A stretch of 40,878 nt of DNA, taken from an uncultured Clostridia bacterium (GTDB taxonomy: Bacteria; Bacillota; Clostridia; Oscillospirales; Ruminococcaceae). Location of the stretch: positions 1 through 40,878 of the forward strand of contig CANQVE010000016.1 in NCBI GenBank assembly GCA_947627205.1, read 5' to 3'. This document shows positions 5,226-22,500 of this stretch, in pieces. The translations under genes were made by a program, and so were the position numbers. The notes below the pieces were generated by a model. That model did not search any database and had not been told where the DNA came from. It saw only the letters and a program-made list of their open reading frames with translations. Numbering within the stretch: the first letter of the stretch is position 1; each line of letters starts with the position of its first letter.

Positions 5226-6095
5226 TCACTCGGTAATAACTTTATACATCTCCGGGCGTCTGTCGCGGAATACTCCCCACGAAAGGCGGAAATCGGATAT
5301 CGCGTCAAGGTCGTATTCGCTTGTCAAAACAGCTTCTTCCTGCTCGGCGCTTGTCTTTACCGCGCCCGTTTCATCAGTCATAAAGCTGTGACCGTAGAAC
5401 GAAAGCTCGCTCTTCTGGAAAGAATTGTCCTCATCGGGAAGAACTTTTTCAACGCCTATGCGGTTTGCGGCAATAACGGGCACAAGATTCGCCGCCGCAT
5501 GACCTTGCATACAGCGCTGCCAATGCGCACTGCTGTCGCAGTCAAGTATAGGCTCGCTCCCTATTGCCGTAGGATACATTAACAGTTCCGCGCCCATAAG
5601 CGCCATACACCTCGCCGCTTCGGGGAACCACTGGTCCCAGCAAATACCGACGCCTATTTTTCCAAAGGAAGTATCCCAGACCTTAAAACCCGTGTTTCCT
5701 GGAGTAAAATAAAACTTCTCCTGGTAAAAATGGTCGTCGGGGATATGCGTTTTTCTGTAAACTCCGAGCAACTTTCCGCAGTCAAGCATTGCAATGCTGT
5801 TATACAAGACATTTCCGTCGCGCTCAAAAAAACTTATCGGCATAACCAGCGAAAATTCTTTTGTCACTTCTGAAAAACACTTTACGGCAAGATCGTCTTT
5901 TGCCGCACAAGCAAGTCCGTAGCTCTCATAGCGCCTTTCCTGGCAAAAATATCTCGTTTCAAAAAGCTCGGGAAGAAGCACAATATTTGCGCCCATTTCA
6001 GCGGCTTTTTTTGTAAGCTCCACAGCCTTTTCAACAGACAGCTCCCGCGTTTCCGGAACGCTCATCTGTACCGCCGCAGCTATAACCTTTCTCAT
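5226..6095 (-). CDS. aguB: N-carbamoylputrescine amidase
   Basis: The enzyme hydrolyses N-carbamoylputrescine to putrescine, CO2 and ammonia, the last step of the agmatine deiminase route. It belongs to the carbon-nitrogen hydrolase (nitrilase) superfamily. The catalytic triad is visible as E43 (LPELFETRYF), K115 (YRKTHIPD) and C152 (GICWDQWFPEAAR). The segments HIPDDHFYQEKFYF and the C-terminal WGVFRDRRPEMY are typical of AguB, and 289 residues is the usual length. It is cytoplasmic. Assignment is strengthened by agmatine deiminase two genes upstream. It starts 15 bp after the GGDEF gene, so the three form one transcription unit. Confidence 0.93.
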   Translation of the reverse strand: MRKVIAAAVQMSVPETRELSVEKAVELTKKAAEMGANIVLLPELFETRYFCQERRYESYGLACAAKDDLAVKCFSEVTKEFSLVMPISFFERDGNVLYNSIAMLDCGKLLGVYRKTHIPDDHFYQEKFYFTPGNTGFKVWDTSFGKIGVGICWDQWFPEAARCMALMGAELLMYPTAIGSEPILDCDSSAHWQRCMQGHAAANLVPVIAANRIGVEKVLPDEDNSFQKSELSFYGHSFMTDETGAVKTSAEQEEAVLTSEYDLDAISDFRLSWGVFRDRRPEMYKVITE

Positions 6096-6110
6096 TCCTA
6101 ACCCCCGACA

Positions 6111-7832
6111 CTACAGATATTGTTCAAACAAGACCTTGTCCAAAATACGGAAATACTCCGTGTCAGACTCGTTCCAGGTGATGTCGGAAGATGTCATCTC
6201 ATAGCTTATTATAAACGTTTTTCCGCTCTTTGCCTTTACCTCGTGGTGCATTACGGAAAGAACGCCCTGTCTGCACAACGCGTCATACGCCTTAGATGCT
6301 TTCATGTCGAAATAAACGACCTTGCTTATGAGCATAACGCCGTTTTCATAAGTCAGCTCAACGCGCTTGTCATAAAGATAGTCTATGGTGTCCTCAATAA
6401 GCTCCTTGCTGAGAAGATTTGTCCCTACCTGCATTACCGCCTCGCGGTCGGTCTTGTTGTAAATAATTATCCTGTCTATCGCAAAATAATCTCTTATGTC
6501 ATTCAAGATCTGCTCGAAAGAAAAATCCTCGCCGACAATTATCTTATTTGCAATTCGGCAAATGACCTCGCTCTTTTCCATAGCTCTGCCGCCGAGAATG
6601 CTTTCATTTCTGACTCCCGATTCAAGAAGTTTTTCAACGGTGCCGTGTTTTGTCGGCTCGTATACGATATAGCGGTTCTTGCCTTTTTTCTTTGCCTTGT
6701 ACAGCAGGCAGTCCGCGAGCTTGAACATCGTGTCATAATTCCCGTCATAATCCTCGGGGAACACCGAAACGCCGATAGAGGTCGTAACGCAGAAGCCGTT
6801 CATAGCCTCGTTATAGCTCGCGTAGACCATATTCTTTATCCCGCGCAGAACGAACTTCAGGCGCTCTTTATCCTCGAAATTGTCGAACACAAGCAGAAAC
6901 TCGTCGCCGCCTATTCTTCCCGCCTTGCCGAAGCCCTCGACCTGTTTTTCTATTATCGCCGCGCAGCGCTTTAAGACCTCGTCGCCCTTTGCATGACCGA
7001 AATTGTCGTTTACAAGTTTAAAATCGTCGATGTCTATTATCGCAAGCGCTGTAGGCTGTCGCAGGTCATTTATGCGCCTTTTGGCATAATTCGTGATATT
7101 TTCTTTCATAAACAAGCCCGTGAGCTGGTCGCGGTTATTAAGCTCGTGAGAAGAATTTTCTCTCGGATCTGCCATTCTTCCGACGGTCATTATATGAACA
7201 TCGTCAGAATATACCGCACTGCCCGTTATGACGAGCTTTTTGGTCTGGTTTTTCTGGACGAACGTACATTCGATACTTCTTACGCCGTTTCTAAGGTCGG
7301 ACAAAAGTTTTGAAACAGCCTCCGCGCTGTTTTCCGAAAGTTTGTCAAGAAGCTCGTTTTTCCAATTGTCCGCGCTGGTAATTCCGAGAATGTCCTTTCC
7401 TATGTCATAACGATAGCTCGTGACCATATCAGTCTTTTTGTCATAAGAAAAATATGTGCAGTCATTTTGAGCCAGAAGCGCGTCGGACTCCTTTTCCTTT
7501 ATCATAAGCTCGTAATAGCCGTTGAAAAGTCTGTTGAGCTCTATCATTCTGACGTTTATAAGGGGCGTGTCCTCTTCTCTGCGGATAAGCTGGGCCGCCA
7601 TAAGGATATCGCTCCCGTCGGTATTTTCAACGGTAACGACAAATGTCTGACCGTATGCCTTATCCTTAAAAGCCTTGTCGAGGACAGCTATGGAATTTTC
7701 CGTAAACAGCCTGTCGGCGGTTATATACAGCCTCGGTCCGAGAAATGCATAAAGCGCGGCATTTGCCGAAACAAAGTCATATCCCGGGACTTTATAAGAA
7801 AACTCAAAAATTCTTTCCGATGAATTGTCCAT
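6111..7832 (-). CDS. GGDEF diguanylate cyclase with N-terminal sensor-like region and C-terminal GAF-like region
   Basis: This is probably a diguanylate cyclase making cyclic di-GMP from two GTP. The GGDEF domain spans about 232-395, with RDQLTGL at its start, the metal/substrate segment IDIDDFKLVNDNFGH and an intact GGDEF at 308-312. I see no RxxD inhibitory site at the expected place five residues before it (sequence there is FGKAGRI). Residues 1-225 resemble a PAS-type input region; residues 400-573 look like a GAF-type domain, an unusual position after GGDEF. No transmembrane segment is visible, so it is likely a cytoplasmic sensor. The ATG has AGAGGTAA upstream. It lies between aguA (13-bp gap) and aguB (15-bp gap). 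Confidence 0.88.
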   Translation of the reverse strand: MDNSSERIFEFSYKVPGYDFVSANAALYAFLGPRLYITADRLFTENSIAVLDKAFKDKAYGQTFVVTVENTDGSDILMAAQLIRREEDTPLINVRMIELNRLFNGYYELMIKEKESDALLAQNDCTYFSYDKKTDMVTSYRYDIGKDILGITSADNWKNELLDKLSENSAEAVSKLLSDLRNGVRSIECTFVQKNQTKKLVITGSAVYSDDVHIMTVGRMADPRENSSHELNNRDQLTGLFMKENITNYAKRRINDLRQPTALAIIDIDDFKLVNDNFGHAKGDEVLKRCAAIIEKQVEGFGKAGRIGGDEFLLVFDNFEDKERLKFVLRGIKNMVYASYNEAMNGFCVTTSIGVSVFPEDYDGNYDTMFKLADCLLYKAKKKGKNRYIVYEPTKHGTVEKLLESGVRNESILGGRAMEKSEVICRIANKIIVGEDFSFEQILNDIRDYFAIDRIIIYNKTDREAVMQVGTNLLSKELIEDTIDYLYDKRVELTYENGVMLISKVVYFDMKASKAYDALCRQGVLSVMHHEVKAKSGKTFIISYEMTSSDITWNESDTEYFRILDKVLFEQYL

Positions 7833-7845
7833 ATTTTACCTCTGT

Positions 7846-8949
7846 TTATCTGTCTGAAAAAATAGGGATCTGCTGTGTAATGCAATGGATATTTCCGCCG
7901 CCGAGGAGTATGTCGCGGGCATATACAGGAACTATCTTCCTTGTCGGGAAAAGCTCCGATAAAGTCTGCCTCGCAGGCTCGTCGGCTTCGTCGCCGAAAA
8001 ACGGCATTATGACCGCTTTGTTTGAAATATAGAAATTTACGTATGACGCCGCAAGACGTTCTCCGACATTTCTCACGGGTTTAAAATTGCAGGTGTCGAG
8101 CCCCTCGCAGTCTTTTTTTGTAACAAGAACGGGCTTCGGCAGATAAAGTTTATGCACCTTTATCCTGCGACCTTTTGCGTCAGTCTCATTTTCAAGAGTT
8201 TCAAGCGCGCTTTTTGAATAGGCATACTGCTCGTCGCTTTCGTCGTCCGTCCAGGCAAGCACGGCTTCTCCGGGCTTTACAAACGCGCACATATTGTCGA
8301 TATGCTCGTTTGTTTCATCACCGCTTATCCCGTTTTTAAGCCAAATGACTTTTTCTGCTCCGAGCGCGCCTTTGAGCTTTTTCTCAATTTCCTCTTTGGT
8401 CATATCGGGGTTTCTGCCCTTGCTTAATAAACACGCTTCGGTAGTTATGACCGTGCCCTCTCCGTCAGTATGTACCGAACCACCCTCGAGGACAAAACCG
8501 CTGTAATCGTACATATCAATGTCATAGAGGTCGCAGAGCTTTCCCGCCATTTTATCATCCTTGTCCCAGGGGAAATAAAGCCCATCGTAAAGCCCGCCCC
8601 AGGCGTTGAAGCTCCAATTTATACCGCGGATACCGCCTTTTCCGTTTACGACAAAGGTCGGAGCATAATCTCTCGCCCATGCGTCGTTGTTGCTCATTTC
8701 GACAACTCTTATCCTCGGCGAAAGCATAACGCGGGCGTTTTCATACTGCTTTTCGGAGGCGCATACCGTAAGTTTTTCGCTTTCGGCTATTGCCTCGCAG
8801 ATCTCGCAGAAAGCCTTTCTCGCGGCATATCCTCCATAGCTCCAGCTGTCCGAGCGTTCGGGAAATATCATGATACAGCCATAATGCTCGGAAAACTCTG
8901 CGGGCATATAAAAGCCGTCGCCGCTCGGCACAGAATTTAAAACATTCAT
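7846..8949 (-). CDS. aguA: Agmatine deiminase
   Basis: The enzyme converts agmatine to N-carbamoylputrescine and ammonia. It is a member of the guanidine-modifying (PPAD-like) superfamily. Visible hallmarks are the N-terminal MPAEF.EH..C.M.FP, NNDAWARDYAPTFVV, FVLEGGSVHTDGEGT, DETNEHIDN with the catalytic His/Asp region, and GGGNIHCITQQIP with the catalytic cysteine near 356. Its length of 367 is normal for AguA, and the full motif set argues against the shorter peptidylarginine deiminase relatives. The ribosome binding site (AAGGTAA) is a little far from the ATG. It is the first gene of an aguA-GGDEF-aguB operon with its own promoter. Confidence 0.94.
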   Translation of the reverse strand: MNVLNSVPSGDGFYMPAEFSEHYGCIMIFPERSDSWSYGGYAARKAFCEICEAIAESEKLTVCASEKQYENARVMLSPRIRVVEMSNNDAWARDYAPTFVVNGKGGIRGINWSFNAWGGLYDGLYFPWDKDDKMAGKLCDLYDIDMYDYSGFVLEGGSVHTDGEGTVITTEACLLSKGRNPDMTKEEIEKKLKGALGAEKVIWLKNGISGDETNEHIDNMCAFVKPGEAVLAWTDDESDEQYAYSKSALETLENETDAKGRRIKVHKLYLPKPVLVTKKDCEGLDTCNFKPVRNVGERLAASYVNFYISNKAVIMPFFGDEADEPARQTLSELFPTRKIVPVYARDILLGGGNIHCITQQIPIFSDR

Positions 8950-10450: not shown

Positions 10451-12436
10451 TCATTGAACACTGTAGCTTTCCGAGGCTATTCTGAAACAATCGTTTACGA
10501 GAGGTTCGCCAAGCTCACTGTACGAAGTTTCGGAAATGGTATGTATCTCGCTTTCTTTGGCGGTGTTAACGCCCTGTGTCAATGCTTCGAGCATATCGAG
10601 CGACTTGAAGTAACTATGGATGGTGCTCATCTTTTTGCAATAAACGACTATCAATATTATTCCCACAGCCAGCAGCGCAAGCCCTGTCAAAAGCAATCCT
10701 GCCGCGACATCTTCAAAATTATTTTCTTCCGCCAGCATTCCTAGGAACATCGCCACAAACACCGCGACAACGAACCTTGGGGCAGAAAACCGTTTAATTA
10801 CAATAAAGTGCGCTATTGTACCGAGAATAATGCACAAAAACGGTACTCCCCATATCCCTGCCATTCCGAAACCCATTATTGCATACGAAATAAGCGTAAT
10901 TCCTGCCGTAATAAGCAAGACGCAGATATTTGCAGGATTAAAAGGCGCGTTTACCTTATCCCCGCTGAACTTGGGATATTTCACTTTTATGCCGTCTCTG
11001 TGATTCACCATACGCTTTAGCGCGTCAGCCTTTTCGATAGCTGAATTTTCGTCATAGCGCGCGAACACTGCCTTGAAATCGTTTGTGACAATTTCCGCTC
11101 TATCGAGCTTTTGAGAGACCTCGTCGAATTTTTCGGCGCTGTCCTCATAGCCGTTTGTTTCGCCGAAAAGGTCTTTTGCTGCCTTGAGCTGTTTTACGGT
11201 CTCGGCATTTTCATAGAGCCTGCACGCTCTGTTGTACATTGTCATTATGCCGTATTTTCTTAGATCACAGCCGAACTGAACGGCGTTTCGGTAGTTCGGG
11301 GATTCGGTTATATCGACATACAGCTTTCCGAGATCTTCCTCGCGCGTACAGCGGTATTCTGCGAGCAGTTTTCCGAGATAAGCCCGTCCGTTTTTGGGAT
11401 CCTGGTCTAATACTCTTTCGCAGAACTTGTCGGCGTTTTCAAAATCACTGCTCGAAAGGAACATAAACGCGCGTTCGAGAAGCGCGGGGATATTCAGCGT
11501 TACAGTCGGCGCGGCGGCCGATACAACTGTTTTTTCATTTCCCTTTGGGATTATTTTTCCGATACCGTGGAGAAGATCCTGTATAAAGCCTATCTTCCCC
11601 ATATCCTGTCCCTGAAGATTTTTAAACTCGCGAGGCATATCATAAGCGTCAATGTCAGCGTAACAAGGGATAAGGAATTTCGAGCTGTCGGTCTTCATCA
11701 TATCGAGAAATCTTGTCCACTCGTTCTTTACCCAGACGGCGTTAAATCTCTCGCGGTGAGTTCCTACCACAAGCATGACCTTTGAGGAAGTGAGCGCCGC
11801 AAATATGTAAGGCTCATACTGCATGCCGAGCTTATCTTCAAGCGTTATTCTGGAGAAAAAGACCTTATAGCCCTCGCGCGTCAGAGCGTTATAGATATCT
11901 TGAGCAAGGACGGAATCCTTTGTGCGCTCGTTGTTTTCGTCCGTTTCCTTATAGCATATAAACACGTCATAAGGCGTTTCGTTCTTTACTATCTCAAGGA
12001 TATTTTTCTGGAGCCTGTCTATTTCCTTTGCCTCGGCATAGTAGATGTCGCGCGCCTCGGGAGTTGCGTATTCATTTGCCTGTTCAAAGTTTTCATAATC
12101 GAAAATGCTTTCAACGGCGGTGCGGTGGCAGGTAGGCACTTTTCTTCCCGTAACGGGATCGTCTACATATTCTATTCCGTACTTACAAAGGCACAAACCC
12201 CAATATGCCTCGGATTCTTCGGGAAATTCGGCGACGATATTTTCATAAACGCTCGCCGCTTTATCAAAATCGCAGGTGGCGCGGAGGTGGTTTGCTCTTG
12301 TAAACAGAGCGGTCTTTCTGTCGTCATCGAACATGGGCACGGTCTGTTTCGTACCGCAGTACGGGCATTCGCAGATATTACTACCCTCGATTATATCGAG
12401 CTTGCCCATACACATTTTACATTGAAAAACTGCCAT
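10451..12436 (-). CDS. Zinc-ribbon/TIR-domain/transmembrane protein
   Basis: This is a 661-residue multidomain protein. Residues 6-27 form a zinc ribbon (C6xxC9, C24xxC27). About 40-150 is a TPR-like helical region. A TIR domain covers about 155-290, opening with PYDVFICYKETDE. E208 in GMQYEPYIFAAL sits where TIR NADases have their catalytic glutamate. A second helical TPR-like part spans 315-495, and about four membrane helices lie between 515 and 615. Bacterial TIR domains often cleave NAD+ or make signalling nucleotides, commonly in defence; here that is inference. The ATG at 12436 follows GGGAGG; a TTG four codons earlier lies inside that site. It has its own promoter, divergent from the solute-binding protein gene. 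Confidence 0.85.
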   Translation of the reverse strand: MAVFQCKMCMGKLDIIEGSNICECPYCGTKQTVPMFDDDRKTALFTRANHLRATCDFDKAASVYENIVAEFPEESEAYWGLCLCKYGIEYVDDPVTGRKVPTCHRTAVESIFDYENFEQANEYATPEARDIYYAEAKEIDRLQKNILEIVKNETPYDVFICYKETDENNERTKDSVLAQDIYNALTREGYKVFFSRITLEDKLGMQYEPYIFAALTSSKVMLVVGTHRERFNAVWVKNEWTRFLDMMKTDSSKFLIPCYADIDAYDMPREFKNLQGQDMGKIGFIQDLLHGIGKIIPKGNEKTVVSAAAPTVTLNIPALLERAFMFLSSSDFENADKFCERVLDQDPKNGRAYLGKLLAEYRCTREEDLGKLYVDITESPNYRNAVQFGCDLRKYGIMTMYNRACRLYENAETVKQLKAAKDLFGETNGYEDSAEKFDEVSQKLDRAEIVTNDFKAVFARYDENSAIEKADALKRMVNHRDGIKVKYPKFSGDKVNAPFNPANICVLLITAGITLISYAIMGFGMAGIWGVPFLCIILGTIAHFIVIKRFSAPRFVVAVFVAMFLGMLAEENNFEDVAAGLLLTGLALLAVGIILIVVYCKKMSTIHSYFKSLDMLEALTQGVNTAKESEIHTISETSYSELGEPLVNDCFRIASESYSVQ

Positions 12437-12469
12437 ATTGCCTCCCAAAATAATAAATCATATATAGTC

Positions 12470-12555: not shown

Positions 12556-12584
12556 TTGACAAGGTGCATTAAATATAGTACAAT
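12556..12584 (+). promoter_or_regulatory. Sigma-A promoter for the lipoprotein-kinase operon
   Basis: TTGACA (12556-12561), a 17-bp spacer and TACAAT (12579-12584). The -35 box is 57 bp from that of the divergent TIR gene. The start near 12591 leaves about 63 nt of leader. Confidence 0.85.
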
Positions 12585-12653: not shown

Positions 12654-14579
12654 ATGAAAATAAAAAAGGTACTTTGCGCTGTATTGGCGGCGCTTTGTTT
12701 AGGAGGCTGTTCCGTAACGGAGGACAATTCTTCGGACGGAGGAAAAATCGTTGTTACGATGATGTACACGGACGAACTGCCTGATCTGGAAAAACTTGTG
12801 GAATCTACATACGGCAATATAGATCTTCAAATTGAAAGAAATACGCCTGCGACAATTGACGGAGAGATAGAACGCCGCCTGAGAAACGGTCACGGGACAG
12901 ACATTATTACTTCTACCCTTGCGACGGGCGATGTGCTCAACTATCTTGCAGACCTTAGCGCGGACGAATATATTTCTGCATATCAGTCGGGAATAATGCA
13001 CAAGACCTCAAAAGACGGAAAAAACCTTTTTATTCCCCTGCCTGCGCAGTATTACGGGTATATTTATAACGTTACGCTCATGCGCGAAAACGGACTTTCT
13101 GTTCCAACTACGCAGGAAGAACTTCTGAATGTGCTCGAAACCGCAAAAGAAAAGAATATAGGCGCAGATGAAAACGGCGCTGTATTTTCTGTGGACGGAA
13201 CGCCCGCGCTTACGGCGGTGTTTGTGCTTGCAACTCAAGTACCCGATTTTTTCGGACTTTCCGAGGGCATAAAATGGCTGGAGGATATGAAAAACGGAAA
13301 TGCTTCTTTCAAAGATTCGCTTGAGGACTGTCTTGACCTGCCTCTTGAAATGATAGAAAAGAAGTATATGGACTCTCTCCAGTTTACGTCCGTTTCAAAC
13401 GCCGCGCCCATACTCGAAAAAATGACGAACGGAAAGCTCCTTATGGCGTTTGACAATGTCACAATGCTGGACGATATCCGAAAAGAAAGCAAATATGAAT
13501 TCGATATGCTCCCCGTGTTCAGCGCCGAGGGAAATCCCGCATGGACAGTTTCAAACCCGACGGCTTTCCTCGGCATAAACAAAGAACTCACCGAAAGCGG
13601 AAACGAGGCTCGGCTTGACGCCTGCCGTAAGATACTTGCTCTTATATCCACGCCCGAAGGTCAGGCCGCCTTTATTCAGGACAACGGCGCGGGATATTCC
13701 TATCTTACGGATTATGATCTAGAGCCGGAAGTTGTTCCCAACGGGATAGAGGAATGTATAGAAAGCGGATATAACTACAACATTTCCATACCGACCGATT
13801 TTATGCGATATCTCGGAAACCGCTGTAATGCCGTTCTGTGCGGACAGAAGAATATTGAGCAGGCGTTTTCGGATATAGATGATTTTATGAATAACGGAAA
13901 CGAGCAGACCGCGACGCTTATAGGAACAATAAATCACGATATGATAGTCGAAAACTATAATGTCCGTCTGAGAGAAACAGAGATAGGAAATCTTATCTCC
14001 GACGCGGTAAGAGAAATTACCGAAGTAGATATTGCCGTTGTTAACGGCGGTTCTATAAGAGGAAGCCTTTATAAGGGCGATGTTTACAGCTATGACCTCG
14101 ATTATGTCTGCCCGTATCCCAACAAAATAATCGTTCTTGAAGTAAACGCAAACGTAATCAGGAAAATGCTTTCAAACGGTCTTTCTGCTATGATCCAAAG
14201 CACAAATATACCGGGAGGAAGATTTTTGAATGTTTCGGGAATTAAATATTCGTTTATACCTCCTGCGGACAATTCCCCCGCACAGCTTGCAGAAGTTACG
14301 CTTCCCGACGGCTCTCCGCTCGACGAAAATAAAACTTATACCATAGCCGTAACGGATTATATGGCGGGAAGAAGCGGATATCTCGACAACAACGGCGACG
14401 GGTTTACGATGCTGAATGTTTACAGCGACGATACGCCAAAGGCAGAAAACGTAAAACTCGTTCGTGAAACGGATAATACGTTACAAAGCATTCTCGAACA
14501 ATTTATGCGCAGTCATAACGACGAGGAAATAGCTTCGCAAATTGAGGGAAGGATCACATCGGTGAATAACAATGGGTGA
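12654..14579 (+). CDS. Lipoprotein fusing an ABC-type solute-binding domain to a 5'-nucleotidase C-terminal domain
   Basis: A 641-residue exported lipoprotein. Residues 1-19 are a type II signal peptide with lipobox LGGC (C19). Residues about 35-410 look like a family 1 extracellular solute-binding protein, with FIPLPAQYYGYIYNVTLMRENGL and AWTVSNPTAFLGINKEL. Residues about 419-640 match the 5'-nucleotidase C-terminal domain: ETEIGNLISDAV, DIAVVNGGSIRGSL, GRFLNVSGIKYSF and a final GDGF. The metallophosphatase half of 5'-nucleotidase is absent, so catalysis is unlikely and ligand binding is more plausible. No ABC permease genes are adjacent. The ATG at 12654 gives the signal peptide directly; an upstream in-frame ATG at 12594 would lie at the transcription start. 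It overlaps the kinase gene by 8 bp. Confidence 0.85.
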   Translation: MKIKKVLCAVLAALCLGGCSVTEDNSSDGGKIVVTMMYTDELPDLEKLVESTYGNIDLQIERNTPATIDGEIERRLRNGHGTDIITSTLATGDVLNYLADLSADEYISAYQSGIMHKTSKDGKNLFIPLPAQYYGYIYNVTLMRENGLSVPTTQEELLNVLETAKEKNIGADENGAVFSVDGTPALTAVFVLATQVPDFFGLSEGIKWLEDMKNGNASFKDSLEDCLDLPLEMIEKKYMDSLQFTSVSNAAPILEKMTNGKLLMAFDNVTMLDDIRKESKYEFDMLPVFSAEGNPAWTVSNPTAFLGINKELTESGNEARLDACRKILALISTPEGQAAFIQDNGAGYSYLTDYDLEPEVVPNGIEECIESGYNYNISIPTDFMRYLGNRCNAVLCGQKNIEQAFSDIDDFMNNGNEQTATLIGTINHDMIVENYNVRLRETEIGNLISDAVREITEVDIAVVNGGSIRGSLYKGDVYSYDLDYVCPYPNKIIVLEVNANVIRKMLSNGLSAMIQSTNIPGGRFLNVSGIKYSFIPPADNSPAQLAEVTLPDGSPLDENKTYTIAVTDYMAGRSGYLDNNGDGFTMLNVYSDDTPKAENVKLVRETDNTLQSILEQFMRSHNDEEIASQIEGRITSVNNNG

Positions 14580-16791
14580 GGATCAGAAAAAAAGAGTATC
14601 GCATGCGCGGTTTTATATCATGCTGGTCCTGGCTATCGTGCTTGTGTGTCTGCTGGTATATTGGCTTATTGTATCTGCCGCGGGGATAACGGCTGATTTC
14701 ACAAAAAATATGAACACAATGTATTTGCGTGAAATGACAAATCTTACGCAGGCGAACTTTAAATCCGGACTTTCTATGAGATACAGCGGGCTTAAAGCCG
14801 TAGCGGAAAGCGTGACCGCCGAGGACACGGAAAACATCGCAATGCTGAAAAGGTTTATTACTTCTGCGGAAGAGAACAACGACTTTGAGTTTTTCGCGTT
14901 TGTTGACAAGGACGGCTTTTACTACAGCGAGGATGGAAAACGCCCTGCCGCTTCAAAGCTCAGCTTTCTCGCAGACCTGCTTTCGGGAAAGGACGAGCTT
15001 GTTTCATACAATGAAACGTTTCTTGACGACAATATGATAGTTCTCGGGACGCAGATAACGCCGATAAAGTATGACCAAACGAACATTATTGCCGTTATTG
15101 CGGGATTTACTGCGGACTCTATCGGTCAGCACCTGTTTCTGCGAAGCGAGGACGGACAGACAAACGCGAGCATTGTAAACAAAGACGGGAGCTTTATAGT
15201 TTATAACACCTATTTCTCCGAATTACCGAAAGGCAGTAACGTCATTTCAAAGTTCAGAGAATACGCCGAATTTGACAAGGGCTTTTCGCTTGAACAAATG
15301 GAAAGCGACTTTAAGAACGGAAATTCGGGAATGGTCGTATTTAAAGCCTCGGACGTACATATGTGCATGTACTATTCGCCGATAGAGGGTACAGAATGGT
15401 ATATGCTGATGGAAGTGCCGTATGAAGTCGTTGACGAGATGACAGAGGACTTAAGCGGACGGCTCAATACAAACGCTATTGTTATGATGGCGACAGTTAT
15501 GGCGATAATAGCAGCCATTTTCGTTATTTATTTCATCAATCTGCGGGCGCACTCAAAACAGCTCGAAGCAGCGCGCGAATCGGCAGAAACGGCAAAAAAA
15601 GCCGCCGAGCAGGCGAGTCTTGCGAAAAGCGAATTTCTAAGCCGTATGAGCCATGAGATACGCACGCCCATGAACGGAATTATCGGTATGACCGAAATTG
15701 CACGCAGGAATTCTGATGATCCCGAAAAGGTGGACGATTGTCTGAAAAAAGTTTCGCTTTCGTCAAAGCACCTGATGTCGCTTATAAATGACGTTCTGGA
15801 TATGTCGAAGATAGAGAGCGGAAAAATACAGCTCAAAAACGAGCTTTTCGACCTGAGAGCGTTTCTTGAAAACATTGAAAATATTTACAGCGTTCAGGCG
15901 GAAGAAAAAGGCATTGAGTTTAAAATTTCACTGTTCGGGAATATTGACGCGCTTATCGGCGGCGATTCGCTGAGGCTCAATCAGATACTTACAAACCTGC
16001 TTTCAAATGCCTTTAAGTTCACGCCGAAAGGCGGAAAAGTAGTTTTAAATGTAAGCGAGCTGAAACACGAGGGAAATACCGTTTTACTGCGGTTTGCAGT
16101 AAAGGACAACGGCGTAGGCATAAAACAGGAAAACCTTGAAAAGATATTTGAGGCATTTGAACAGGAAAACGCCGAAGTTACGCACAAATACGGCGGCACG
16201 GGTTTGGGACTTTCTATTGTAAAGAAATTTTCCGAGCTTATGGGCGGAAGCGTAAAGGTAAGAAGCGTATTTGGCAAGGGTTCGGAATTTGAGGTTGAAC
16301 TGCCGTTTACTGTTACAGACAGGTCGCACACAATAGAATGGAAAACAGAAAGAGACAACTCTGACAGAGCCTCCGACAATAAAGTTTACGATTTTAACGG
16401 AAAGCATATACTTCTTGCGGAGGACAACGAGCTTAACCGCGAGATAGCAACGGAACTTCTCGGAGACAGTACGGGAGCAATTATAGACGAAGCCGAAAAC
16501 GGACAAATGGCTGTTTCGCTTTTTGAGGAAAGCGAGATAGGCTATTATGATCTGATACTTATGGATATTCAGATGCCTGTTATGGACGGCTTTGAGGCGA
16601 CAAGAATTATCCGCGCCATGAATCGCCCCGACGCTTCGGCTGTTCCTATCTTTGCAATGACCGCCAACGCCTTTGCAGAGGACGAAGAAAAAAGCATTCA
16701 GGCGGGAATGAACGCCCACCTCTCAAAGCCCCTGGAAATTTCAGCCGTTCTCGCGGCAATGAACGAAATACTTTTCAGAAGTAAGAAATAA
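14572..16791 (+). CDS. Hybrid sensor histidine kinase with extracellular dCACHE-like domain and receiver
   Basis: A 739-residue membrane kinase. A helix at 13-36 and another at 302-323 bracket a periplasm-side sensor of about 260 residues that resembles a dCACHE domain (FFAFVDKDGFYYSEDG, ASIVNKDGSFIVYN). A short coiled coil leads to the HisKA box with H361 (SHEIRTPMNGIIGM). The ATPase domain has NLLSNAFKFTP, DNGVGI and GGTGLGLSI, and the C-terminal receiver has D665 (LILMDIQMP) and the SKP lysine. There is no Hpt domain and no adjacent response regulator, so the output is unknown. Translation is probably coupled to the upstream lipoprotein through the 8-bp overlap. The obvious inference is that the lipoprotein presents a ligand to this kinase. 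Confidence 0.93.
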   Translation: MGEDQKKRVSHARFYIMLVLAIVLVCLLVYWLIVSAAGITADFTKNMNTMYLREMTNLTQANFKSGLSMRYSGLKAVAESVTAEDTENIAMLKRFITSAEENNDFEFFAFVDKDGFYYSEDGKRPAASKLSFLADLLSGKDELVSYNETFLDDNMIVLGTQITPIKYDQTNIIAVIAGFTADSIGQHLFLRSEDGQTNASIVNKDGSFIVYNTYFSELPKGSNVISKFREYAEFDKGFSLEQMESDFKNGNSGMVVFKASDVHMCMYYSPIEGTEWYMLMEVPYEVVDEMTEDLSGRLNTNAIVMMATVMAIIAAIFVIYFINLRAHSKQLEAARESAETAKKAAEQASLAKSEFLSRMSHEIRTPMNGIIGMTEIARRNSDDPEKVDDCLKKVSLSSKHLMSLINDVLDMSKIESGKIQLKNELFDLRAFLENIENIYSVQAEEKGIEFKISLFGNIDALIGGDSLRLNQILTNLLSNAFKFTPKGGKVVLNVSELKHEGNTVLLRFAVKDNGVGIKQENLEKIFEAFEQENAEVTHKYGGTGLGLSIVKKFSELMGGSVKVRSVFGKGSEFEVELPFTVTDRSHTIEWKTERDNSDRASDNKVYDFNGKHILLAEDNELNREIATELLGDSTGAIIDEAENGQMAVSLFEESEIGYYDLILMDIQMPVMDGFEATRIIRAMNRPDASAVPIFAMTANAFAEDEEKSIQAGMNAHLSKPLEISAVLAAMNEILFRSKK

Positions 16792-16810
16792 AAGATAAGA
16801 AGTAATATTA

Positions 16811-16840
16811 TACGCCCCCGAAGTAATCTTCGGGGGCGTA
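16811..16840. terminator. Strong hairpin between convergent kinase and giant surface-protein genes
   Basis: A perfect 13-bp stem, TACGCCCCCGAAG (16811-16823) / CTTCGGGGGCGTA (16828-16840), with a TAAT loop. U-tracts are poor on both sides, so it may act bidirectionally mainly by stem strength. Confidence 0.75.
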
Positions 16841-16865
16841 TGCTTTATAAAGTATTGCTTAAATA

Positions 16866-19800
16866 TTAAGCCTGTTTTTTCTTGCGGAGCATTACCGCAA
16901 CACCGACCGCCGCGGCTGAAAGGACCGTTATCAGGAGCGCGTAATCATTTGCGCCTGTTCCGGGCTGAGGCGCTGCCGTATCGGAATAAACTATCGCATA
17001 AGTCGAGAACTTATCGGTAGAGAAAGTGATCGTATCGGCACTATCGTCTATATCATCAAGTATTTCGGCGTCATTCCCGTGCAGACGTACTACAGCAAAC
17101 TTTCTGCCGTCCGCCTTAAGATCGTCGGGAATTTCAACAGTGATATTAACAGCCTTTGAAAGCTCGGTTATTTCAAATGCTTTATTGCCTATGTATTTTG
17201 TGATATCTATATTGACATATCTGCCGATCTCGTATGCGTCTTTAACTGCTTCCTCAATAAGAGTCTTATTCTCGGCTGTAACGGTATTATCGGCATTTTC
17301 AACGGTTATAACTACCTTGATATCCTCGCCGTTTTCGCGTGCCGCCGTATCTTCATCCGTAAGCACAGCGTCTTCAATAGCCTTTATCTCATCTTCGGTC
17401 AGCTTGATAGCAGGAGCATTTTCGCCAGATTCGGGTATTACATTTATATCGCCCATAGTTGCGGGAATGACCTTGCCCTTTTCAACTGTCTCGCCGCACT
17501 CGGTACATACGAGATCACCCGTATAGCCGTCGCTTTCAGCAGTAGCAGGCTTATAACCTACAAGCTCTGTTGTGTGATATCCCCTTGCGGGAATAGCTGT
17601 GCTTTCTTTTACAGCGTCGCACTTCGAGCAATGAACAGACTTGCTTCCGTCTGTCGTACAAGTGGGTTCTTTGTCCGTTGTGAAGTGATCTTCCCATGTA
17701 TGACCGTTTGCCGCAAGACCGCTTGTTTCCTTAATTCCGCAGACATCACAAGTTCTTTCCTGTGTACCCTCGTCATCACAGTCGGGTGAAGATATAGTCT
17801 TCCACTCGCCGAACTTGTGTCCGAGAGCCTCAATTACCTGTGAGCTGTTAGGCTTTGTAAGTCCGCAAACCGTGCAGTGAATAGACTTGCTTCCCTCTGT
17901 CGTACAGGTGGGCTCAACGTCTACCGTAAGTTCACTGCTCCACTTGTGGTTTTCAAGGTCAGTGCCTCTTGTTTCGGTATATCCGCAGACAGTACATTTT
18001 CTCTGCTGATTACTTTCGCCTGTCGCAGTTTTTACTTCTTCCCATTCGCCGAAGCTGTGACCGTTTGCGGGTATTACCTCGCTTCTTTCAACAGCGTCGC
18101 ACTTCGAGCAATGAACAGACTTGCTTCCGTCTGTCGTACAAGTGGGTTCTTTGTCCGTTGTGAAGTGATCTTCCCATGTATGACCGTTTGCCGCAAGACC
18201 GCTTGTTTCCTTAATTCCGCAGACATCACAAGTTCTTTCCTGTGTACCCTCGTCATCACAGTCGGGTGAAGATATAGTCTTCCACTCGCCGAACTTGTGT
18301 CCGAGAGCCTCAATTACCTGTGAGCTGTTAGGCTTTGTAAGTCCGCAAACCGTGCAGTGAATAGACTTGCTTCCCTCTGTCGTACAGGTGGGCTCAACGT
18401 CTACCGTAAGTTCACTGCTCCACTTGTGGTTTTCAAGGTCAGTGCCTCTTGTTTCGGTATATCCGCAGACAGTACATTTTCTCTGCTGATTACTTTCGCC
18501 TGTCGCAGTTTTTACTTCTTCCCATTCGCCGAAGCTGTGACCGTTTGCGGGTATTACCTCGCTTCTTTCAACAGCGTCGCACTTCGAGCAATGAACAGAC
18601 TTGCTTCCGTCTGTCGTACAAGTGGGTTCTTTGTCCGTTGTGAAGTGATCTTCCCATGTATGACCGTTTGCCGCAAGACCGCTTGTTTCCTTAATTCCGC
18701 AGACATCACAAGTTCTTTCCTGTGTACCCTCGTCATCACAGTCGGGTGAAGATATAGTCTTCCACTCGCCGAACTTGTGTCCGAGAGCCTCAATTACCTG
18801 TGAGCTGTTAGGCTTTGTAAGTCCGCAAACCGTGCAGTGAATAGACTTGCTTCCCTCTGTCGTACAGGTGGGCTCAACGTCTACCGTAAGTTCACTGCTC
18901 CACTTGTGGTTTTCAAGGTCAGTGCCTCTTGTTTCGGTATATCCGCAGACAGTACATTTTCTCTGCTGATTACTTTCGCCTGTCGCAGTTTTTACTTCTT
19001 CCCATTCGCCGAAGCTGTGACCGTTTGCGGGTATTACCTCGCTTCTTTCAACAGCGTCGCACTTCGAGCAATGAACAGACTTGCTTCCGTCTGTCGTACA
19101 AGTGGGTTCTTTGTCCGTTGTGAAGTGATCTTCCCATGTATGACCGTTTGCCGCAAGACCGCTTGTTTCCTTAATTCCGCAGACATCACAAGTTCTTTCC
19201 TGTGTGCCCTCGTCATCACAGTCGGGTGATGTAATTGTTTTCCATTCACCCCATTCGTGATTTTTAGCAGCTATCGTTTCCGAGCTGCCGGGCTTTGTAA
19301 GTCCGCAGACTGTGCAGTGAATAGACTTGCTTCCCTCTGTCGTGCAGGTAGGTTCAGCGTCTATAGTGTATTCAGTGTTCCACGAGTGATTTACAAGGTC
19401 TGTTCCTCTGGTTTCTGTAATGCCGCAAACTGTGCACTGTCTCTGCTCGTTGAACTTGCCGTCTTTGGTCTCAACTACTTCCCAGTCGCCCATCTTGTGA
19501 CCTAAAGCCGGAACAGTAACGGGTGTAGATCTTACACGCTCTTTGCATCTTGAGCAGTATACAACCTCATTATATCTTCCTGCTGTCGTGCAGTTAGCTT
19601 CTATAACAGTTTCCTTAACAGGTTCAAGTTCTTCGTGACCGAGCGCTTTTATTGTCTCGGGTTCAGAAGTAGTACCGCAGTTTACACAGTGGTAAGACTT
19701 GCTTCCGTCAGTGGTGCATGTCGCTTCTTTGTCAACTATCTTATTCTCACTCCAGACGTGATCGGTGTGGTATGAAGCTGATTCGGAAAATCCGCAAGTT

Positions 19801-22430
19801 TTGCATTCACGCTTCATAGTGCCGCTTTCGGGATCGCTCGGAGTTTGTATCTTTACCCAATCTGTAAAGTCATGACCTTTTGCAGGGATAACAGTATAAG
19901 TTCTGTCCAATTCGCTTTTGCAGACACTGCAGAGCACTAAAGTTTGAGTTCCGCCGTCGGCGGTGCAGGTAGCATCTTTAACAACTGTAGTCTGAACCTC
20001 ACCGGGCTGGTGCGCAAGCGTGGGTATAACTTCGGTAGCCTCGGGGTTGGAGATGTGACAATTCTTGCAGTGCTTAGACTTCTGACCGGGCTTAAGACAA
20101 GTAGGCTGCACATCTATGGTGTAATCATCTTCCCATTCGTGCGAGCCGCCCGTGGTCTCGGTTTCAGTAAGACCGCAGAACTGACATTTTCTCTGGCTTG
20201 TAGTATCCCCGCAAAGCACGGAAGAAACTTCGTTCCAATCCGACCATCTGTGTGCCAACATCGGCTCTGTATAACTGTCGTTCCGTTCAATTATAAGACC
20301 ACAGTTTTTACAGTATGTCAGTTTTGTTCCCTCGCCGATATTTACGCAGGAGGCAGCTCTCGTCATTTCGGTAACTGTCATGCCCTTAACGTGCTGACCG
20401 TTTATTTTTACATTGTAAACGGTCTCGTTTCCTGCCTTGTCTGTAGCCTTGATGACAACATCGGCAGTGCCGGTGTGATCAAATTTTACAGAAAACTTCT
20501 TGTCGCCTGTCATAGTGGCAATTATACCGCTGTCTTCGCTCGGCAAAATGTTTTCATAATTGTAGATAACTTCGCCGTCAACGGTAACGGTTGCAAGGTT
20601 ATTGTCGTTTACGGTAAATTCAATGCTCTCGCAGTATGTGCCGCCGTTTGCAATACCCGAAATAGTAGGTTCAGACGGATCAAAAACTATTGCGGCGCTG
20701 CTGGCGTAGGTATCGTTTCCGTCGCTGTCAGTAGCCTTGAAGTATACATATCTTCTGTTGTTTTTGGTGGGACTTACAACAACGCTTTTGCCGTCGTAAA
20801 CTGTCCAATAATTGCGCTCTTTGGCAGCCAGTTGTTCAGCAGTGAGCTCGTCATCGCTTACGATATAATATATAGCCTTTATTTCAGAATCCTGTTCATC
20901 TGTAGCCGTTGCGGTTACTGTAGCAGTCTGCTCTTTTACAAATACCGTGTAGCCGGTGAGAATGGTATTCCATGTTTCGCCGTTGAGCTCTACGGTTATT
21001 TCAGGACCTACAGCATTCTTGTAAACAGCCTTGTATGACTTGTTGCCGGTAGTGCCCTTAGCTATAGTAACTTTTTTATTCTCGGAAGAGTTGCTTTCAT
21101 CTACCCAGCCCGCAAACCTCTGATCAGTCGGCGCGGCAGGTGTGGGAAGATCAAAATCTTTATCATCTTTTGTGTAAGTTTTGATGTACTTGCCGTCTTT
21201 AAATTCCCAACCGTCAGCGTTTGTCAGCGTTCCGCCCTTAAGATCAAGCGTTATGGTATAGGTTGTAAGAGCCTCGCCGCCGTACAGGGTAATATCCTTG
21301 GAAACACTACTGTCAAAGTCATATTTTTCCCCTGTATGCTCCGCATCTTCATACCAATCATCTCCGGCAGTCTGACCGTCATTGTCATATTCAACAGTGG
21401 GCTTTGCAAAGTTACCGTCCTTGTTTGCAAACTCTTCGGCAAATACCGTGTTATTCAGCATAAATACTGCTCTGTAAACTCTGTCGTTGTCATTGTTTTT
21501 GAGCGCAGGCTCAGTTTCGCCGTTCTCGCCGAGCTTCTGCCCCCAATATACTTTATCAGGGATTTCTTCGCCCTGCGCATTTCTCAGTATCCATGCCGCC
21601 TTGCCGTTTGCTATCTCGTCAGGGGTAAGGGCAGGGATATTCTTATTCTGATCTCCTACCGGTGTACCTACCGCAAGAGAGCCGTTATTTTTATAGCAGC
21701 TGTTTGTTATATTATTTGCGCCGGCAGTACCTGCTATAGCGCCAAAAGCGCCCGAAGAACCTTTGCTTTCCGCTGACAGATCTGCAAAACAGTTCTTAAC
21801 GGTACCGTTAGTGCCTGCGCCCATGATACCGCCGCACTGAATTACCGCGTTTACGGTTCCTTTGACATAACAGTTTTCTATATTGCCCTCATTTACGCCT
21901 GCCAACAGTCCGACAAACCAACCGCCGGTAATATTTGCAGTGCCCTCAATGGTGAGATTTTTTACCGTACCGCCCTTTCCTATCTGACCGAAAAGGCCGT
22001 AATAGTAACCATCGGCTCTATTGCTTCCGGACACTCTTATAACTTTCATTCCGGTTATCTTATGACCGTTTCCGTCAAAAGTACCTTTAAATCCGCCGCT
22101 TCTGCTTATCGGCGTCCAATCACCGAGGCCGTCAATGTCCGCAGTGAGTTCATAATACGCACTAACAGCAGGCTCACTGCCGCCGTTAGGCGTAGTACCG
22201 TTGTTTACCGCATCTCTCATGCTTTCAAGCGCCTCTTTGCTGCCTATCAGATAAGGCTCATCTTTCGTGCCTTTACCCGTCAGCTCAGTAACAGACGCTT
22301 TTTCCATGCCATCTGCGGCGGCCGCACCTGCTCTGTCGAACAGTCCGCTCAGCGGAAGCATGGTCAAAACAAACACGACTGCGGTCAAAAGACCTAAGAT
22401 ACGTTTTTGCGCTGTAGTGATCTTTAACAC
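16866..22430 (-). CDS. Giant Cys-repeat surface protein with GLUG and InlB-type repeats
   Basis: This is an exported protein of about 1,854 residues. In order: a signal peptide; a GLUG-type region (FKGTFDGNGHKITGM, YYYGLFGQIGKGGTVKNL); two InlB B-repeat-like modules with Ig-like sequence; about 970 residues of Cys/His modules (PTCTTEGSKSIHCTVCG alternating with FGEW...RxCxVCG, each ending near a GH); a 190-residue globular part; then PQPGTGAND, a hydrophobic helix and RKKKQA. The end looks like a sortase signal with a non-standard QPGTG. Adhesion or cell-wall display is inferred. AAGGAG fits the GTG at 22430, nine bases downstream, better than an ATG that abuts it. The gene is divergent from the CAP gene, which carries the same modules. 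Confidence 0.85.
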   Translation of the reverse strand: MLKITTAQKRILGLLTAVVFVLTMLPLSGLFDRAGAAAADGMEKASVTELTGKGTKDEPYLIGSKEALESMRDAVNNGTTPNGGSEPAVSAYYELTADIDGLGDWTPISRSGGFKGTFDGNGHKITGMKVIRVSGSNRADGYYYGLFGQIGKGGTVKNLTIEGTANITGGWFVGLLAGVNEGNIENCYVKGTVNAVIQCGGIMGAGTNGTVKNCFADLSAESKGSSGAFGAIAGTAGANNITNSCYKNNGSLAVGTPVGDQNKNIPALTPDEIANGKAAWILRNAQGEEIPDKVYWGQKLGENGETEPALKNNDNDRVYRAVFMLNNTVFAEEFANKDGNFAKPTVEYDNDGQTAGDDWYEDAEHTGEKYDFDSSVSKDITLYGGEALTTYTITLDLKGGTLTNADGWEFKDGKYIKTYTKDDKDFDLPTPAAPTDQRFAGWVDESNSSENKKVTIAKGTTGNKSYKAVYKNAVGPEITVELNGETWNTILTGYTVFVKEQTATVTATATDEQDSEIKAIYYIVSDDELTAEQLAAKERNYWTVYDGKSVVVSPTKNNRRYVYFKATDSDGNDTYASSAAIVFDPSEPTISGIANGGTYCESIEFTVNDNNLATVTVDGEVIYNYENILPSEDSGIIATMTGDKKFSVKFDHTGTADVVIKATDKAGNETVYNVKINGQHVKGMTVTEMTRAASCVNIGEGTKLTYCKNCGLIIERNDSYTEPMLAHRWSDWNEVSSVLCGDTTSQRKCQFCGLTETETTGGSHEWEDDYTIDVQPTCLKPGQKSKHCKNCHISNPEATEVIPTLAHQPGEVQTTVVKDATCTADGGTQTLVLCSVCKSELDRTYTVIPAKGHDFTDWVKIQTPSDPESGTMKRECKTCGFSESASYHTDHVWSENKIVDKEATCTTDGSKSYHCVNCGTTSEPETIKALGHEELEPVKETVIEANCTTAGRYNEVVYCSRCKERVRSTPVTVPALGHKMGDWEVVETKDGKFNEQRQCTVCGITETRGTDLVNHSWNTEYTIDAEPTCTTEGSKSIHCTVCGLTKPGSSETIAAKNHEWGEWKTITSPDCDDEGTQERTCDVCGIKETSGLAANGHTWEDHFTTDKEPTCTTDGSKSVHCSKCDAVERSEVIPANGHSFGEWEEVKTATGESNQQRKCTVCGYTETRGTDLENHKWSSELTVDVEPTCTTEGSKSIHCTVCGLTKPNSSQVIEALGHKFGEWKTISSPDCDDEGTQERTCDVCGIKETSGLAANGHTWEDHFTTDKEPTCTTDGSKSVHCSKCDAVERSEVIPANGHSFGEWEEVKTATGESNQQRKCTVCGYTETRGTDLENHKWSSELTVDVEPTCTTEGSKSIHCTVCGLTKPNSSQVIEALGHKFGEWKTISSPDCDDEGTQERTCDVCGIKETSGLAANGHTWEDHFTTDKEPTCTTDGSKSVHCSKCDAVERSEVIPANGHSFGEWEEVKTATGESNQQRKCTVCGYTETRGTDLENHKWSSELTVDVEPTCTTEGSKSIHCTVCGLTKPNSSQVIEALGHKFGEWKTISSPDCDDEGTQERTCDVCGIKETSGLAANGHTWEDHFTTDKEPTCTTDGSKSVHCSKCDAVKESTAIPARGYHTTELVGYKPATAESDGYTGDLVCTECGETVEKGKVIPATMGDINVIPESGENAPAIKLTEDEIKAIEDAVLTDEDTAARENGEDIKVVITVENADNTVTAENKTLIEEAVKDAYEIGRYVNIDITKYIGNKAFEITELSKAVNITVEIPDDLKADGRKFAVVRLHGNDAEILDDIDDSADTITFSTDKFSTYAIVYSDTAAPQPGTGANDYALLITVLSAAAVGVAVMLRKKKQA
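17611..19229 (-). repeat. 480-bp tandem repeat, about 3.4 copies, perfect at DNA level
   Basis: Bases 17611-19205 repeat with an exact 480-bp period and no mismatch. One mismatch at 19206 precedes the end of similarity at 19229. Each unit encodes 160 residues made of four Cys modules of 38-42 residues. Identity at synonymous sites points to recent duplication or gene conversion. The true copy number may differ if the assembly came from short reads. Confidence 0.97.
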
Positions 22431-22500
22431 TGAAACCATCTCCTTTTTTGAATATTGTATTCCCAAACGTCCATCGCCGCCCGGATATACTTATGTAGTG

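Follow-up and report, generated by a model that had tools for sequence, protein, structure and literature searches.

The locus analysed here raises the question of what is read by a lipoprotein in which the substrate-binding half of a 5'-nucleotidase is joined to a solute-binding protein (SBP) domain, and to which partner it reports. It lies in a window of 40,878 nucleotides, the whole stretch of DNA that was analysed (contig CANQVE010000016.1 of assembly GCA_947627205.1), which comes from an uncultured Clostridia bacterium of the Ruminococcaceae, and the lipoprotein gene overlaps there with the gene of a hybrid histidine kinase. This fusion lipoprotein and its overlapping kinase gene, noticed before in a first-pass annotation of the sequence, are confirmed, and the earlier interpretation of the pair is supported. 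The best reading of the sequences is that the two proteins would work like LuxPQ and CuaDS, as a receptor for extracellular nucleotides. No report of a fusion between an SBP and a 5_nucleotid_C domain (5NC) was found in the open-access literature that was searched.

A binding protein fused to half a nucleotidase

The two parts of the lipoprotein are matched by different Pfam families, SBP_bac_8 (PF13416; E 3e-13, 50.6 bits, cut-off 27) and 5_nucleotid_C (PF02872; E 8.9e-30, 104.3 bits, cut-off 23.6), while no match to Metallophos, the catalytic half of a nucleotidase, was found up to E 0.1. The ABC-type (ATP-binding cassette) binding domain of the first-pass annotation is thus present, but its family name, given as SBP_bac_1, has to be replaced by SBP_bac_8; the second predicted part, a 5NC at residues 419-640 lacking the catalytic half, agrees with the strong match at residues 423-576. 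Among solved sequences, a profile search places 3quf nearest to the SBP part (E 2e-8), and the nearest ones are sugar-binding or family-1 proteins, while 2z1a is nearest to the 5NC (E 4e-16 alone, 3e-23 with a profile). With UshA and CD73 the lipoprotein shares the 5NC and six out of six substrate-pocket residues in kind, but unlike these enzymes and CpdB it has no metallophosphoesterase domain and carries the SBP domain in its place. Because of the missing Metallophos domain, it was not filed as a nucleotidase.

Predicted nucleotide-pocket residues

In CD73 with bound adenosine monophosphate (AMP), as given in the available text of PMC8677862, the base is contacted by Phe417 and Phe500, the ribose by Asn390 and Asp506, and the phosphate by Arg354 and Arg395. 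The stacking pair is Phe429/Phe498 in UshA and Tyr440/Tyr544 in CpdB, according to the excerpt of PMC7922932. These contacts were placed on the lipoprotein by alignments to 2z1a and UshA and by a MAFFT alignment, with both UshA phenylalanines aligning to phenylalanines as a check of the numbering; CD73 was placed by the distances within its motifs (five residues from N to R, and six from F to D, where the window lipoprotein has a 7-residue insert) and the start of the profile match, and not residue by residue. At all six CD73-type contact positions the window lipoprotein has residues of the same kind, which read RNRYYD, and the two tyrosines in place of the phenylalanines at the stacking pair are also the condition of CpdB in that excerpt.

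Among the 57 relatives introduced in the next section, 54 span all six positions and keep every one in kind (53 RNRYYD, one RNRFYD), and the three cut relatives agree at the positions present. The class-level members of the window's clade, L165, L167, L168 and L169, are RNRYYD in four of four cases, with L165 repeating L037. The pattern R[NSV]R[FY][FY]D describes nine nucleotidase-like rows, two of them PDB fragments and seven fetched; Pfam was run on four of these seven, and L107, one of the four, had no Metallophos match. The full set is absent from the divergent fusions (0 of 22; 12 from the genus, 8 from the class, 2 from the phylum), for which the alignment is less sure. The earlier suggestion of extracellular nucleotides or nucleosides as ligand, derived from the domain type, thereby gains residue-level support from six contacts that are predicted throughout the clade and lost as a full set in its sisters, and the ligand moves from a guess to a prediction that names residues.

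The same pocket could be occupied by a nucleoside, by a nucleotide sugar spanning both domains, by nicotinamide adenine dinucleotide (NAD) or by a cyclic dinucleotide, given that the 5NC serves UshA for uridine diphosphate (UDP)-sugars and CpdB for 3'-AMP and cyclic dinucleotides, as far as described in the portions available of PMC10454023 and PMC7922932. We consider such a ligand rather unlikely; the one feature that separates the candidates here is that the two arginines of the phosphate type are both present, as would suit a phosphorylated ligand.

Two further proteins of genome G000 carry a 5NC. A 557 aa lipoprotein on contig C48 (L107:1116-2789, minus strand) has a strong 5NC match (122 bits) and all six of these pocket residues, but Metallophos was not matched up to E 0.05, and it contains GDQE where the protein on contig C19 has GNHE; an inactive nucleotidase is therefore possible. 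The C19 protein (L108:3178-7131, minus strand), a surface protein of 1317 aa with the intact-looking GNHE motif and a 5NC domain, is probably the working extracellular nucleotidase of this genome.

Constant pairing with a hybrid kinase

A scan of genome contigs yielded 60 loci, of which three (L061-L063) encode two-domain nucleotidases (Metallophos and 5NC) and 57 (L004-L060) encode the fusion, whole or partial at contig ends; the latter all come from the metagenome-assembled genome series Lapin. In every one of these 57, the sensor part of the kinase is matched after the lipoprotein on the same strand, although the kinase is cut near the contig end in L015 and L034 and frame-broken in L021. 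Where both open reading frames could be picked (54 loci), they overlap in 47, abut in 6 (0-1 nt) and include the broken kinase of L021 in one; the starts were taken mechanically as the most upstream ones, so that overlap lengths are upper bounds. The lipoprotein and the kinase therefore form a unit. Apart from the pair, no neighbour cluster occurs in more than 5 of the 54 loci (positions -4 to +5, E 1e-8), and thus neither a cognate response regulator gene conserved beside the kinase nor conserved neighbours that would hint at the ligand were found.

A lipoprotein with an SBP domain of an ABC family could also be the binding protein of an importer whose permease is encoded elsewhere. The shared domain is the evidence in favour, but the kinase next door in every locus speaks for another partner, and import permeases are absent from the neighbour families with at least three members among the 113 of 226 neighbours scanned (commonest families: ABC_tran 4, LGT 3, LysR_substrate 3, AAA_21 3; families with two members or fewer are only partly listed). 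In the window itself, no binding-protein-dependent import permease was found among the 25 genes scanned with Pfam (the pair and 23 others), in line with the first-pass annotation, and the genes at 28.1-29.7 kb form a cluster of the ABC-2 type, which is a different kind. We rejected the importer reading because of the kinase pairing and a neighbourhood without recurrent permeases, and regard it as highly improbable; that the lipoprotein is a sensor partner, as proposed before, fits homologues which adjoin hybrid kinases and not permeases.

The arrangement also recurs further away, as the first-pass annotation had suggested should be surveyed in other Clostridia. In a class-level survey, which scored up to three candidates per genome, at least 14 full-length fusions were found in 11 of 391 genomes (including the window's own) from seven families, and a hybrid kinase adjoins a fusion in 10 of these 11, G423 being at a contig end. 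G351 has a second fusion followed by a kinase split over two reading frames, and G100 has two tandem fusions, one adjoining the kinase and the other its twin. When 398 genomes of the phylum were sampled, only G762 was new; it carries two fusions, and a kinase adjoins each of them. Within the genus, close full-length matches occur in 8 of the 61 genomes of a relatives sample, in which several genomes of the 60 loci recur, so that the two sets are not independent; of 13 genus stretches with distant fusions, a hybrid kinase lies on the same strand at most 33 nt away in 8, the contig end cuts off what begins like a kinase in L105, and the arrangement is broken in L102. Most of the divergent fusions without the pocket thus adjoin hybrid kinases too.

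The kinase and its likeness to known systems

Before its HisKA (residues 351-417), HATPase_c (464-580) and Response_reg (613-730) domains, the kinase has an outer part that matches dCache_1 at residues 77-279 with E 1.1e-10 and 41.9 bits, slightly below the curated cut-off of 45, which agrees with the large dCACHE-like extracellular domain of the earlier description. The 8 bp gene overlap and a kinase that terminates in its receiver were likewise reproduced: no Hpt or output domain was matched by Pfam C-terminal to the receiver. No solved relative of the outer part was found at E 1. Among 58 kinases (two of which, L037 and L165, are of the same genome), the phosphoacceptor motif was present in all 58, the GTGLGL box in 57, the receiver aspartate in 56, the N box in 55, the receiver lysine in 49 and the DNG box in 39; the patterns used are simple ones. 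In 24 diverged kinases, the identity to the window kinase is 0.45 for the dCache, 0.85 for HisKA, 0.65 for HATPase_c and 0.72 for the receiver.

The kinase could sense the ligand by its own dCache domain and be merely tuned by the lipoprotein. Many dCache domains bind ligands directly, and dCache_1PU domains bind purines and feed extracellular purine sensing into kinases and second-messenger enzymes (available text of PMC11245519); also, CuaSR is reported to sense cellobiose without CuaD in the part of PMC10384115 that was accessible. However, a simple pattern for the dCache_1PU and dCache_1AA signature as far as PMC11245519 gives its residues (an arginine and W followed by F/Y in the distal module, R..W[YF]) matched within residues 61-250 of 0 of 58 kinases, and any tryptophan occurs there in only two. 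Together with the constant co-occurrence of the lipoprotein, this makes direct sensing by the kinase very unlikely. If nucleotides are the ligand, the pair would share extracellular purine sensing with dCache_1PU, and would differ from it by a kinase dCache without such a signature and a pocket in a separate lipoprotein.

LuxP-LuxQ is the autoinducer-2 receptor of Vibrio, in which LuxP sets the activity of LuxQ; LuxP belongs to another SBP type than SBP_bac_8. The window pair resembles it in having a binding-protein gene next to that of a hybrid kinase whose outer domain is dCache-like and whose last domain is a receiver, and in having an Hpt as a separate protein; among the NCBIfam models, LuxQ matches the kinase best (residues 331-731). 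This match is, however, confined to the kinase core, with 326.7 bits against a cut-off of 1200, and the SBP part is of another family and fused to the 5NC. A filing as LuxPQ was rejected, as the kinase is far below the LuxQ cut-off and the binding protein is not LuxP-type. In Ruminiclostridium, SBP sensing for a kinase is established by CuaD-CuaS, and the CuaD-CuaS-CuaR system of R. cellulolyticum offers a clostridial SBP dedicated to a neighbouring kinase (accessible part of PMC10384115). In contrast to CuaS/CuaR, a kinase-regulator pair for cellobiose in that source, the window pair has no conserved regulator gene beside the kinase, and its lipoprotein carries a 5NC domain.

Which domain reads the ligand

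In the diverged half of the window's clade, no part of the lipoprotein is conserved better than the 5NC, with a mean identity of 0.64 to the window's own domain in 21 diverged members, against 0.44 for SBP residues 30-400. Pfam scans agree: seven of seven clade members give a 5NC match of 93-111 bits, and three of seven an SBP match at E <=0.001. The 16 divergent fusions that were scanned behave the other way round, with SBP families at E <=0.001 in 12; the 5NC passes its cut-off in 10 of them, scores lower in 4 and is not seen in the other 2. From this contrast in Pfam matches and conservation, the clade and the divergent fusions appear to rely on opposite domains.

The SBP domain could nevertheless be the reader throughout, for example of an oligosaccharide, with the 5NC as scaffold and its pocket residues kept by descent or structure. 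The divergent fusions, which mostly have the SBP and have lost the pocket, would fit this, as would the sugar-binding or family-1 proteins nearest to the SBP domain and its well-conserved residues 30-150. Within the window's clade, on the other hand, the SBP domain is the more variable one and stays unmatched at E 0.001 in four of seven members that all match the 5NC, and we think that reading by the SBP domain is improbable there.

Concerning the origin of the fusion, the pocket-bearing clade forms one side of a 100/100 branch in the full-length tree, for which a long-branch warning applies. The 5NC tree places the window's clade beside nucleotidases (support 98), and a single fusion is possible if the tree is rooted there. 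In the SBP tree the clade groups with 8 of 10 ordinary SBPs with a support of 89, below the 95 mark, which would fit two fusions.

Proposed mechanism and exit of the signal

We favour, with modest confidence, an extracellular-nucleotide receptor of a three-component type, in which the lipoprotein reads the ligand, docks on the dCache domain of the kinase and so starts a relay. From the domains, the gene overlap, the conserved pairing, the kept pocket residues and the single Hpt with its neighbour, all of which are observed, we infer binding, specificity, docking, the direction of signalling and the relay. The lipoprotein would read the ligand while anchored outside the membrane, and its 5NC would hold an extracellular nucleotide with the base between Y488 and Y569, the ribose on N464 and D582 and the phosphate on R438 and R469. 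The bound nucleotide would be left unhydrolysed, since a solute-binding domain stands where the enzymes have their metallophosphoesterase half. The lipoprotein would then set the activity of the kinase through its dCache-like domain, comparable to LuxP-LuxQ and CuaD-CuaS, and the phosphoryl group would move from the histidine of HisKA to the receiver of the same kinase, from there probably to the single free Hpt and on to the adjacent REC-HD-GYP protein, a likely phosphodiesterase of cyclic di-GMP (c-di-GMP).

This Hpt, the only hit in the window's genome, may be the unlinked exit for the kinase signal. Its gene overlaps the REC-HD-GYP gene and precedes another hybrid kinase; the genome has four further hybrid kinases and nine GGDEF hits, which make c-di-GMP signalling plausible. 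The neighbourhood was examined in the pair-bearing genomes: in 12 others (of 17 others searched for Hpt), relatives of the Hpt and REC-HD-GYP proteins are adjacent in 8, and G199 and G207 (weak Hpt) show the adjacency by position, while G362 has a different receiver protein at that place and nothing of the kind was found in G372. Since the Hpt is universal in the genus sample and four other hybrid kinases are present, it is probably a shared hub. Its presence was dropped as evidence for the pair, given the base rate of 46 of 61 genomes overall and all of the genus.

Besides this, an Hpt gene lies at the divergent pairs L100, L170 and L172 and near L099, which links the receptor type to phosphorelays. 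The close genomes G000, G002, G005 and G007 have one Hpt each, and in most other genomes of the genus Hpt is additionally hit in frames some 710-750 aa long, which may be CheA; a loss of chemotaxis in the branch of these four genomes is possible.

Several observations weigh against a nucleotide receptor as outlined. There is a 7-residue insert between Y569 and D582 of the window lipoprotein, and SBP residues 30-150 are nearly as conserved (0.59) as the 5NC, with residues 150-400 at 0.37. Sister fusions keep the 5NC without the pocket, and the domain can, as judged from these sequences, serve another role. Three of the 13 distant genus fusions (L097, L098 and L103) have no adjacent same-strand kinase in their stretch, and the Hpt, found in 37 of 37 genus genomes, is no mark of the lipoprotein-kinase pair.

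Features and surroundings of the pair

The features of the pair are collected in the table. The consensus scan that gave the promoter-like site returned 15 sites in the region, against 7.4 expected.

Table. Coordinates of the lipoprotein-kinase pair and associated features in the window
Feature	Position	Strand	Basis or remark
Promoter-like site, 11 of 12, 69 bp upstream of the lipoprotein start	12556..12584	+	Consensus scan only
SBP-5NC fusion lipoprotein gene	12654..14579	+	641 aa; open frame begins 12594
Lipoprotein signal peptide, lipobox LGGC, Cys19	12654..12710	+	Motif in sequence
SBP_bac_8 domain, lipoprotein residues 57-346	12822..13691	+	Pfam match
5_nucleotid_C domain, lipoprotein residues 423-576	13920..14381	+	Pfam match
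Predicted nucleotide-pocket residues R438, N464, R469, Y488, Y569, D582	13965..14399	+	Alignment; roles per available text of PMC8677862
Overlap of lipoprotein and kinase genes, 8 bp	14572..14579	+	Coordinates
Hybrid histidine kinase gene	14572..16791	+	739 aa
dCache_1-like extracellular domain, kinase residues 77-279	14800..15408	+	Pfam, below cut-off
HisKA and HATPase_c of the kinase	15622..16311	+	Pfam
Receiver domain, kinase residues 613-730, last domain	16408..16761	+	Pfam
14-pair hairpin between kinase and convergent gene	16810..16841		Terminator-like for the minus strand only

Other genes of the window lie on the minus strand around the pair. A TIR_2 protein with TPR repeats (10451-12448) starts close to the divergent promoter-like site, and a cell-surface-like protein of 1866 aa with long, near-identical internal repeats (16866-22466) is convergent with the kinase. 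Genes of the peptidyl-arginine deiminase type and for a carbon-nitrogen hydrolase, as in agmatine use, are found at 5226-8949 with a GGDEF gene between them.

Implications

Whether the receptor type as a whole has moved its reading site is, in our judgement, evenly balanced: gut Clostridia would have built a receptor by replacing the catalytic half of a nucleotidase with an SBP and wiring it to a hybrid kinase, and across the SBP-5NC receptors the site would have shifted between the domains, so that the window's clade reads through the nucleotide pocket and the sisters, which have lost it, read something else. The sister fusions offer a natural comparison for the way in which a receptor exchanges its ligand but retains its kinase. 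To animal hosts, nucleotides outside the cell serve as signals. If the nucleotide reading is true, a nucleotidase pocket would have been reused as the co-receptor of a kinase and would reach this class of signal by another route than the purine-binding dCache, and a set of gut-bacterial receptor pairs without known ligand would obtain one, together with named residues to test. Some gut bacteria would then be using the part of an enzyme that holds the nucleotide as a receptor on their surface, which would report extracellular nucleotides to a signalling kinase.

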